Part shown: piece after piece, positions 28,731-32,735 of the stretch
How the letters are laid out: every line of letters starts with the position of its first letter
Numbering within the stretch: the first letter of the stretch is position 1
Source: Alphaproteobacteria bacterium
GTDB lineage: Bacteria; Pseudomonadota; Alphaproteobacteria; Sphingomonadales; Kordiimonadaceae
Reading direction: 5' to 3'
Length of the DNA: 32,735 bases
Assembly: GCA_021774775.1 (NCBI GenBank)
Contig: JAJFIT010000061.1
Location: forward strand, 1-32,735
Translations under genes and position numbers: made by a program
Notes under the pieces: model-generated
Database searches by the model: none
What the model saw: only the letters and a program-made list of their open reading frames with translations
What the model was told of the DNA's origin: nothing

Positions 28731-30185
28731 TTAGCTGGACCTCAAAGGCAGATTGATTTCCAATTCTCGTATTTTTTTACGGAGCGTATTGCGATTCAAT
28801 CCCAAAAGCTCGGCTGACTTTACTTGGTTGCCGTTGGTAACGCTCAGTACTTTCTGGATCAGCGGTCGTTCAATTTCGCGCAGAATTCTGGTATGCAGAC
28901 CGGGCGGTGGCAAGCCGTCTTCATGATAGTCAAAATACTGGTCTAAATGGAGCCGGACAGTTTGCGACAGGTTTCCGCCTGTCACATTGGCCATAATACT
29001 CATTGGACCACCGGCAAGGTCAGACGTAGACCGGTCAAATTCTGCCTTGATGGCTTCGCCGTTGATTTGGTCGCCAGGATGTAAGGCGCAAATTCTACGA
29101 ATTAGATTTTCCAGTTCCCGTACATTGCCTGGCCAGTCAAACGATTGCAGAACTTTCTTGGCGCCTGCGGTTAAGCTTTTGAAAGGAAGACCAGATTCAG
29201 CGACTTGATCAAGAAAATGTTCGGCAAGATCAGGAACATCTTCCGTTCGTTCACGCAGCGGCGGTATCGACAAAGGCACAACATTCAATCTGAAATACAG
29301 GTCTTCCCTAAACTCGCCAGAGCCAACCATAGCTTTCAGGTTTTTGTTGGTTGCAGCGATGATGCGCACGTTGGTGCGGATGCTGGACTGGCCGCCTACA
29401 GTGCGATATTCGCCTTCCTGCAGTACCCGCAAGAGGCGGGTTTGCGCCTCAAGCGGCATGTCGCCGATCTCATCAAGAAACAATGTGCCGCCTTTGGCTT
29501 CTCCAAAACGGCCCAGAGTACGGGTTTCTGCGCCAGTGAAGGCGCCGCGCTCGTGCCCGAATAACTCGGTTTCAATTAACTCTTTGGGAATTGCAGCCAT
29601 ATTAATTGGTACGAAAGAGTTTTCGCGGCGCGGACTATGTTCATGCAGTGCGCGTGCAACCAGTTCTTTTCCCGTGCCGCTCTCGCCGTGAATAAGGACT
29701 GTAAGTTCGGTTTGCACGACCCGGGCCATGGCACGGTATATTTCCTGCATGGCTGGTGAACGTCCAATAAGAATATCCTGATCAGCGACACTGCGCTCTG
29801 GTTGTCGGGTCGTTGTAGTTTTAAGTGCTTTCTTAACAATGCTCACTAACTCATCAATATCAAAAGGTTTTGGAAGATATTCAAAAGCACCATTGTTGGT
29901 TGCATCCATAGCTGTGGAAAGGGTATTTTGCGCACTCATAATGATGAAGGCCAGTTCTGGGCGGTCCTTCAGGAGCATGGGCATCGCCTCAAGACCGCTG
30001 CCGCCGGGCATCAATACATCGGATATCACAACGTCGCCCTGCCCTGACCGCACCAACCGTGTAAGCTCAGGTACATCTTCTGCCTCGATGACCAACCAGC
30101 CCTCCTGGCGTAGCGCTTCGCCGACAACAAGCCTTATTGTCATGTCGTCGTCGGCTACAATAATTGTTGCGTTACTTTTGCTCAT
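28731..30185 (-). CDS. ntrC: Nitrogen regulation response regulator NtrC
   Basis: Receiver, sigma54-interaction domain with GESGTGKELVARALHEHS and GAFTGA (ELFGHERGAFTGAETR), Fis-type HTH GNQVKSAELLGLNRNTLRKKIREL; ATG at 30185 overlaps the ntrB end. Confidence 0.97.
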   Translation of the reverse strand: MSKSNATIIVADDDMTIRLVVGEALRQEGWLVIEAEDVPELTRLVRSGQGDVVISDVLMPGGSGLEAMPMLLKDRPELAFIIMSAQNTLSTAMDATNNGAFEYLPKPFDIDELVSIVKKALKTTTTRQPERSVADQDILIGRSPAMQEIYRAMARVVQTELTVLIHGESGTGKELVARALHEHSPRRENSFVPINMAAIPKELIETELFGHERGAFTGAETRTLGRFGEAKGGTLFLDEIGDMPLEAQTRLLRVLQEGEYRTVGGQSSIRTNVRIIAATNKNLKAMVGSGEFREDLYFRLNVVPLSIPPLRERTEDVPDLAEHFLDQVAESGLPFKSLTAGAKKVLQSFDWPGNVRELENLIRRICALHPGDQINGEAIKAEFDRSTSDLAGGPMSIMANVTGGNLSQTVRLHLDQYFDYHEDGLPPPGLHTRILREIERPLIQKVLSVTNGNQVKSAELLGLNRNTLRKKIRELEINLPLRSS

Positions 30186-31275
30186 GGTTTCTGTCCTCAT
30201 GCATGGCTAGCTGCACCCTGAATACTGCGCCGCCCTCATTGTGGTTGTCAGCAGTAACCGTGCCACCGAAATTACTGACGTAACGCGCGACAAGTGATAA
30301 CCCCAATCCAGCGCCACCGGACTTTCCGGTTACGAATGGGTCGAAAAGGTGGCCTTTGATGTTATCTGGAATGCCAGGTCCGTTGTCTTTGACTGTTATT
30401 TCGATTGGCAGCCGAATTCGTTCTCCGTCCGCCCCCCGTATCCAAATGCCATGGCGGTAGGCGGTGGAAACGGTAATGTCTGCTTCTGGCCCCGCAGCTT
30501 CAACAGCATTTTTAACCAGGTTAAGGAACACCTGGACCAAACGATCATAGTTGCCGTCTACCAGAGGTAAAGACGGGTCAAATTTTGGCCGGATGACCGC
30601 GGATTCGGCAAACCCTGCAACTGATAGATTGAGAACATGGTCCAACACCTCGTGGATATTAACGGCTTCCATATTCTGTTCGATTGGGGCGTTAAACCCT
30701 TCAAGATCGTCGACCAAATCCTTAATCCGATCCACTTCCTTACAAATCAGCTCTGTCAGTCTGATGTGTTTTTCGTCCAAAGCACGCCCCATCAACTGAG
30801 CAGCGCCTCGGATACCAGACAATGGGTTCTTGATTTCATGGGCCAGCATAGACGCCAGCCCACTGACCGAGCGCGCGGCCGCGTCCATTTCGCTTTTCTT
30901 TTCCAGAAATGCAGTAATCCTTCGAGGTAATACAGACACAATTGTCGACCCGTCTTCTTCGATTGGGTTTGCATGCAAGTCCACCAATTCGACATCACCC
31001 AGCGGTGGCATGCAGCGAACGTCATAACTGTTAAGCGGTGAGTTTTCCTGCCGGGCGCGAGAAACAAGTTCTTCCGCCGCACCACCGACGCCTCCAAGGC
31101 CGGATAGTTCACTGTTAATGAGGCTTTCGCGGCTCCGGCCCAAAATAGCTTCAGCGTGTGCATAAACTTCACGGATTTGATTTTTTCTGTCTACAACAAC
31201 AACGGCTTGTCGCAGGCCTGCCAAAATTCGTTGTTCCTGGCCGTCAGTTAGATTGGTGTTGTCAGCGATGACCAT
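30172..31275 (-). CDS. ntrB: Nitrogen regulation sensor kinase NtrB (GlnL)
   Basis: PAS plus LASMLAHEIKNPLSGIRGAAQLMGRALDE H-box and GGAGLGLSLVARYVSNFGGTV; start overlaps the dusB stop (TGATG). Confidence 0.96.
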   Translation of the reverse strand: MVIADNTNLTDGQEQRILAGLRQAVVVVDRKNQIREVYAHAEAILGRSRESLINSELSGLGGVGGAAEELVSRARQENSPLNSYDVRCMPPLGDVELVDLHANPIEEDGSTIVSVLPRRITAFLEKKSEMDAAARSVSGLASMLAHEIKNPLSGIRGAAQLMGRALDEKHIRLTELICKEVDRIKDLVDDLEGFNAPIEQNMEAVNIHEVLDHVLNLSVAGFAESAVIRPKFDPSLPLVDGNYDRLVQVFLNLVKNAVEAAGPEADITVSTAYRHGIWIRGADGERIRLPIEITVKDNGPGIPDNIKGHLFDPFVTGKSGGAGLGLSLVARYVSNFGGTVTADNHNEGGAVFRVQLAMHEDRNHEQK

Positions 31276-32261
31276 CAGGCCGCCAGTTGCTCACAAAGTG
31301 GCAGGTAAAATGCCTTGATCGCGGCCTTTACTTTTTCGGGATCATCCTGGCGGTTGACATCATTTCTGAATTCGGCGGAGCCATGTAATCCCTTGGTATA
31401 CCAACCGATGTGCTTGCGTGCGATACGCACGGCCGCCTCGACACCATAATGGTGCAGCATATCTTCATAATGTTCAATCAATGTGGCCAGTTGAACATCA
31501 AGGGGCGGCGGCGCAGTTTCCTCGCCGGTGCGCAGGTATTGGATCGCCTGATTGATGAACCAGGGCTTACCGTAAGTACCGCGTCCAATCATCACGCCGT
31601 CAGCGTTACTGTCGCTAAGAGATTGCTTTATATCGTTAAAGTCATTGATGTCACCGTTGACAATTACCGGAAGCGACACAGCTTTCTTGACTAAGCCGAC
31701 CTTTTTCCAGTTGGCGTGGCCCTTGTAAAATTGACAGCGGGTGCGTCCATGTACCGCGATCAGTTTGATGCCTGCCTGTTCAGCGATTTTTGCCAATTCG
31801 GGCGCGTTGAAACTATTGTCGTCCCAGCCCAAGCGCATTTTAAGGGTTACAGGCAACGACACTGCGGTCACTGTGGCATGGATCAGTTCGCCTGCATGGT
31901 CCAGGTCGCGCATCAGGCTGGAGCCCGCGTGACCGTTAACAACTTTTTTGACCGGGCACCCCATGTTGATATCGATGATCGCTGCACCGCGGTCCTCGTT
32001 TAACCGGGCGGCCTGCGCCATTTTTGCGCCTTCGCAACCCGCTAGCTGGACCGACATGGGGAATTCGTCCGCACAATTGGTTGCCATTTTCTGGCTGCGT
32101 TCGGTGGCGCGTATCATCGCCTCGGATGCAATCATTTCCGAGACAACCAGCCCCGCACCAAAGCGTTTTACCAACCGGCGAAACGGCATATCGGTAACGC
32201 CCGACATGGGGGCGAGAATAACGGGGTCTATGATTTCAACCGGACCAATGTTAATAGCCAT
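31275..32261 (-). CDS. dusB: tRNA-dihydrouridine synthase DusB (NifR3)
   Basis: LAPMSGVTDMPFRRLVKRFGAGLVVSEMIASEA, IIDINMGCPVKKVVNGHAGSSLMRD, GVMIGRGTYGKPWFI; first gene of the dusB-ntrBC operon. Confidence 0.97.
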   Translation of the reverse strand: MAINIGPVEIIDPVILAPMSGVTDMPFRRLVKRFGAGLVVSEMIASEAMIRATERSQKMATNCADEFPMSVQLAGCEGAKMAQAARLNEDRGAAIIDINMGCPVKKVVNGHAGSSLMRDLDHAGELIHATVTAVSLPVTLKMRLGWDDNSFNAPELAKIAEQAGIKLIAVHGRTRCQFYKGHANWKKVGLVKKAVSLPVIVNGDINDFNDIKQSLSDSNADGVMIGRGTYGKPWFINQAIQYLRTGEETAPPPLDVQLATLIEHYEDMLHHYGVEAAVRIARKHIGWYTKGLHGSAEFRNDVNRQDDPEKVKAAIKAFYLPLCEQLAA

Positions 32262-32285: not shown

Positions 32286-32302
32286 TGCCTAATAATTAGG
32301 CA
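32286..32302. promoter_or_regulatory. Perfect 17-bp dyad TGCCTAATAATTAGGCA fitting the NtrC core TGC-N11-GCA
   Basis: TGCCTAAT (32286-32293) A ATTAGGCA (32295-32302), in the dusB/ispD divergent promoter, 25 nt upstream of the dusB start. Confidence 0.65.
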
Positions 32303-32348
32303 CTGCTTATGCCAGAAGTAAATTTAAAAATCTATAGCGGGATTTTCT

Positions 32349-32735
32349 ATGGCTGAAACGGCGCAAAATGCAGGAAAAATAGCGGTTATCTTGGTCGCGG
32401 CTGGCCGTGGTAGTCGCGCAGGGGTTGGTGCGCCCAAGCAATACCGAGACCTAATGGGAAGGCCGGTTATCGTCAGAACGCTGGAGGCGTTTCAAGAAGC
32501 ATTTGAAGAGCGTGAACAAATAGCTTTGATAGTGCCGGTTATTCACCGCGATGATCAGGATATCTACCGCAAGTGTGTTGTTGGACTCCGCGGCATCGCG
32601 GCACCCGTTATCGGTGGTGCCACGCGCCAGCAAAGCGTAAAAAATGCTTTGGAATCTTTAGCCGATATTCAGCCTGACGTTGTTCTAATACATGATGCGG
32701 CGCGGCCTTTCGTCACCGCAGATTTGATAGCGCGT
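32349..32735 (+). CDS. ispD: 2-C-methyl-D-erythritol 4-phosphate cytidylyltransferase (IspD or IspDF), truncated at window end
   Basis: ATG at 32349 opens a frame to the window end: AVILVAAGRGSRAGVGAPKQYRDLMGRPVIVRTLEAF...GGATRQQSVKNALESL...VVLIHDAARPFVTADLIAR. Not in the ORF track because it is partial. Confidence 0.95.
   Translation, partial: MAETAQNAGKIAVILVAAGRGSRAGVGAPKQYRDLMGRPVIVRTLEAFQEAFEEREQIALIVPVIHRDDQDIYRKCVVGLRGIAAPVIGGATRQQSVKNALESLADIQPDVVLIHDAARPFVTADLIAR

Follow-up and report, generated by a model that had tools for sequence, protein, structure and literature searches.

The perfect dyad TGCCTAATAATTAGGCA, which lies at positions 32286-32302 of the window (the whole stretch of 32,735 nucleotides that was analysed, from a draft genome of 2.93 Mb), is very probably the operator at which NtrC represses dusB-ntrB-ntrC, the operon that encodes it; we assign this reading, which is drawn from sequence comparison, a probability of about 0.88. 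The dyad itself, its identity with the NtrC motif of the genome, its conservation, the conserved promoter-like element beside it and its association with ntrB are all directly observed.

Genomic context

The minus strand of the window carries, in this order, dusB, an ntrB-like kinase gene, ntrC, a gene for an NtrY-like kinase, ntrX, trkA and a trkH-like gene. The operon opens with dusB (31275-32261, minus strand), which matches TIGR00737 with 386.8 bits; between it and ntrC stands the ntrB-like sensor kinase gene (30172-31275, minus strand), whose product has nitrogen regulation protein NR(II) as its top NCBIfam match at 178 bits, under the cut-off of 240; and ntrC (28731-30200, minus strand), whose product is the predicted dyad-binding regulator, scores 604.6 bits with TIGR01818 against a cut-off of 558.6. 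The presence of an NtrC-encoding operon downstream of the site, asserted by the first-pass annotation, is thus confirmed. Since the receiver aspartate, the GAFTGA loop and the helix-turn-helix at the C-terminus are all retained in the translated NtrC, the protein is predicted to be able to activate the glnB and glnK sigma-54 promoters. On the other side of the dyad lies the divergent ispD (32349-32735, plus strand), which is truncated by the contig end and recognized by a TIGR00453 match to the fragment; the dyad is separated from dusB by 24 nt and from ispD by 46 nt.

The dyad and the NtrC motif of the genome

The letters at 32286-32302 form, as originally described, an exact 8+1+8 dyad that fits TGC-N11-GCA and lies ahead of dusB-ntrB-ntrC, and no other perfect 8+1+8 dyad occurs in the window. 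Such symmetry is not unusual by itself, since 0.73 dyads of this kind are expected per window under a first-order Markov model of its sequence, and TGC-N11-GCA occurs 11 times, below the 17 occurrences expected. What lifts the dyad above chance is its match to the NtrC motif of the genome, its genome-wide rarity and its conservation. When up to three mismatches were allowed, just three further copies were detected in the source genome, one preceding glnB-glnA (C18), one preceding glnK-amtB (C140) and one at folB-uvrC (C68).

The regions upstream of glnB and glnK in the family contain sigma-54 promoters of the form TGGCA-N7-TGC, and the AT-rich TGC-N11-GCA sites in these regions are mostly positioned 82, 90-92 or 97-102 bp upstream of the -24 element, distances that are spaced by approximately one helical turn (L035-L094, 30 family genomes). 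A weight matrix was built from 26 distinct sites upstream of the family glnB-glnA and glnK-amtB sigma-54 promoters, with no dusB site among them. The matrix gives the window dyad the top score of 25.5 bits, against 10.0 bits for the second-best position in the window; for best scores taken per 250 bp, the 99th percentile is 9.4 bits. The outer TGC and GCA columns were fixed by the choice of training sites, for which an AT-rich middle was required, and the columns immediately inside them, which were left free, likewise agree with the window dyad. Comparison with the genome's own NtrC motif, which had been proposed as a check on the site, thus came out in its favour. In four family genomes (L139, L146, L150, L152) an NtrC-like dyad was also seen between the genes for a TetR-type regulator and an alpha/beta-hydrolase-like protein; there it may be that regulator's own operator.

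Conservation upstream of dusB

Conservation in relatives, a second check suggested by the first-pass annotation, is evident at three levels. Within the Kordiimonadaceae, a marine family, the dyad is kept before dusB in 29/29 genomes, the set being those in which the region upstream of dusB was usable. In other families of the order a site scoring 14 bits or more is present in 16 of the 20 genomes examined, and a seventeenth has one of 8.6 bits. Across the wider Alphaproteobacteria, where ntrB lies directly downstream of dusB, a site is located within 90 bp of dusB in approximately 18 of 19 genomes, a few of these sites being weak (6.6-10.9 bits), whereas among the located genomes in which ntrB is not adjacent, none of four has a dusB site; this association with ntrB (p = 6e-4) is based on small numbers and approximate start positions, and leaves out five loci that were unplaced. 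Two dyads 27-29 bp apart are often present in the dusB-ntrBC promoter of sister families and other Alphaproteobacteria (L099-L103, L109, L113, L174-L198), against one strong dyad in that of the Kordiimonadaceae. The comparison suggests that tandem dyads with this spacing are common in the class, and that the Kordiimonadaceae retain a single strong copy.

The site goes with dusB rather than with ispD, because one locus, L111, keeps the dyad beside a different divergent reading frame (start MARVTVEDC), the product of which looks like RNA polymerase omega and not IspD. The suggestion that isoprenoid synthesis could be touched by nitrogen status through ispD is therefore unsupported, and an effect of the dyad on this gene is unproven.

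A promoter predicted to start transcription within the dyad

Conserved alongside the dyad is CATAAG (32306-32311, minus strand), a predicted -10 hexamer of the dusB promoter in which CATAA is present in 29/29 family genomes and the final G in 28/29. A predicted -35 hexamer, TAGATT in the window (32329-32334, minus strand) and TGGCTT in most relatives, lies 17 bp from it, a spacing that is constant in all 29 genomes; the bases T (-23), G (-21) and T (-17), counted from CATAAG, never vary. We therefore read TAGATT/TGGCTT-17 bp-CATAAG as a predicted vegetative-type promoter. Because CATAAG ends 0-3 bp ahead of the dyad on the dusB strand in the 29 family genomes, dusB transcription is predicted to start inside the dyad, a geometry expected of a repressor. 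It should be emphasized, however, that the -35 element matches the usual consensus poorly and that the start is a prediction. A scan of the genome collection for CATAAG-N0-4-dyad returned 21 stretches, 18 of them from Kordiimonadaceae; the remaining three, from a Clostridia metagenome-assembled genome, an Acinetobacter and a Gammaproteobacteria metagenome-assembled genome, look like chance occurrences.

This layout departs from the promoter originally proposed, TTTACT-N18-TAATTA with its -10 inside the dyad. The sequence is indeed present on the minus strand, but it is not conserved in the 29 family genomes: TTTACT is not maintained, and TAATTA, which is part of the dyad, varies along with it. 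We have therefore rejected this promoter; the conserved CATAAG precedes the dyad, and it is the predicted start that the dyad covers. The repression reading is unchanged by the correction, and the earlier interpretation is supported in substance and wrong in its promoter detail.

We propose that transcription from the vegetative-type promoter, whose -35 and -10 elements occupy 32334-32329 and 32311-32306 on the minus strand, would begin within the dyad. NtrC sitting on the dyad would obstruct RNA polymerase or the early steps of transcription, and repression of this kind would hold NtrB and NtrC at low and steady levels. The same NtrC, acting on the same motif positioned ~82-102 bp upstream of the -24 element, would activate the sigma-54 promoters of glnB-glnA and glnK-amtB. 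For Kordiimonas we infer the binding of NtrC, the transcription start, the repression and any phosphorylation dependence from these features.

It could be argued that NtrC instead activates the operon, with CTGGCATAAGCAGTGCC (32302-32315, minus strand) acting as a -24/-12 sigma-54 promoter aimed at dusB and the dyad overlapping its -12 element. The sequence fits TGGCA-N7-TGC and resembles the family glnK promoters; its mimicry of a sigma-54 -24/-12 promoter extends to the window and 16 relatives. We consider such activation very unlikely, however, since the GG-N10-GC geometry is found in only 17 of the 29 genomes, compared with an invariant CATAA whose upstream spacing is constant, and since a site atop a -12 element is not in an enhancer position. 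The candidate sigma-54 promoter of dusB was rejected on the grounds that the GG-to-GC distance or the GG itself is lost in 12/29 genomes. Nor was the layout of an NtrC enhancer, with a conserved -24/-12 promoter ~80-100 bp downstream, found at this site, as dusB begins 24 nt from the dyad.

Other readers of the dyad

An alternative to NtrC as the protein that reads this site is another regulator of the same fold, either NtrX, which is encoded downstream, or a Fis-like protein. The DNA-binding domain of NtrX is related, and the copy of the dyad at folB-uvrC occurs in 12 of 63 genomes that lack ntrC, implying that a further reader may exist. The motifs published for NtrX, CAA-N2-5-TTG and, in R. 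sphaeroides, GCA-N9-TGC (PMC9223101), are both absent from the window dyad, and NtrX was rejected as the reader on the basis of this mismatch. Against any such regulator, the sigma-54 promoters of glnB and glnK have sites of the same motif at an enhancer-like distance, and the presence of the dusB site goes with that of an adjacent ntrB; we thus regard reading of the dyad by another regulator of this fold as very unlikely.

The possibility that the dyad functions at the RNA level, as a hairpin in the leader of dusB, or that it serves ispD instead of dusB, is negligible even though the transcript could form a 7-bp stem and ispD is just 46 nt away, since folding is no better than that of shuffled sequences (z = -0.56, on which the hairpin was rejected), the same sequence stands upstream of sigma-54 promoters and hence outside those transcripts, and the dyad persists in L111 beside a gene other than ispD.

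A conserved dyad and DnaA box upstream of uvrC

Upstream of uvrC, the NtrC motif pointed to a further element that is conserved and unexplained. In the source genome this folB-uvrC element (G000:C68:2266-2353, L003; see also L137-L153 and L203-L262) combines the DnaA box TTATCCACA with a dyad of the NtrC/Fis type. In 12/12 family genomes compared the box starts 62 bp past the dyad's end, and all but one of the 12 have a second DnaA-like box that begins ~123 bp before the dyad. When box and dyad were searched for as a pair, with a gap of 56-68 bp allowed and the reversed pattern as control, the pair was identified in 62/301 genomes of the order (one match for the control) and in 101/385 genomes of the class Alphaproteobacteria (zero for the control). 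The gap was 61-63 bp in all 60 loci fetched, and uvrC adjoins the pair in 30/30 loci from the order and 24/30 from the class. A literature search on this uvrC-upstream element found no paper.

The element was rejected as a replication origin: in a closed relative the GC skew switches from negative to positive at 0.3-0.6 Mb, a region that includes hemE at 0.438 Mb, whereas the element is located at 3.08 Mb. NtrC as its sole reader was likewise rejected, its presence showing no association with ntrC (12/63 genomes without the gene against 21/79 with it; p = 0.32). The uvrC element may well be read by a protein other than NtrC, because the element is about equally common in genomes without and with ntrC. 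That a similar dyad occurs there in genomes without ntrC counts against self-repression of dusB-ntrB-ntrC by NtrC, in that another protein of like specificity may exist.

The element may regulate DnaA in a manner similar to DARS or datA. E. coli DARS2 employs IHF and Fis beside DnaA boxes (PMC4245941), and the NtrC motif of Caulobacter has been reported to be related to the Fis motif (PMC10274813); a DARS-like role is thus an attractive guess. That whichever protein reads the dusB dyad, be it NtrC or a Fis-like protein sharing its specificity, is bound at this class-wide element as well strikes us as very unlikely, the similar frequency of the element with and without ntrC counting against it. 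If true, it would place NtrC-type binding at a DnaA-binding locus, in a job like that of Fis at E. coli DARS2, and would link both nitrogen status and the control of replication to the feedback loop of dusB-ntrBC.

Comparison with known NtrC systems

Autorepression of dusB-ntrBC in other alphaproteobacteria, to which the first-pass annotation had appealed, is published (PMC10274813, PMC10746234), and the literature that we searched contained no such work on NtrC in Kordiimonadaceae. The dyad would thus extend a documented autorepression loop to this family, and the motif and promoter layout described here make NtrC control in Kordiimonas directly testable. In the part available to us, a reconstruction of the NtrC regulon in Proteobacteria gives a core of glnA, amtB, glnB/K, ntrB and ntrC that agrees with the sites reported here, and does not treat Kordiimonas or the promoter layout of the window (PMC5343134).

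Sinorhizobium meliloti resembles the window in having a dusB-ntrBC operon, the autorepression of which is described as known, and in the TGC-N11-GCA core of its NtrC site (PMC10746234). That core was footprinted with NtrC at another repressed promoter, that of the small RNA gene nfeR1; the footprinted site is thus not the one at dusB, and its distance to the start differs from that in the window (PMC10746234).

In Caulobacter crescentus NtrC binds the promoter of its own operon, and loss of ntrC raises the transcripts ~20-fold (PMC10274813). The two systems share the order of a dihydrouridine synthase gene, ntrB and ntrC, and glnBA and glnK, which have predicted sites here, are direct NtrC targets in Caulobacter (PMC10274813, PMC12421884). 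In contrast with the Kordiimonas protein, however, Caulobacter NtrC lacks GAFTGA and acts at sigma-70 promoters (PMC10274813, PMC12421884), whereas the glnB and glnK promoters of Kordiimonas resemble sigma-54 promoters.
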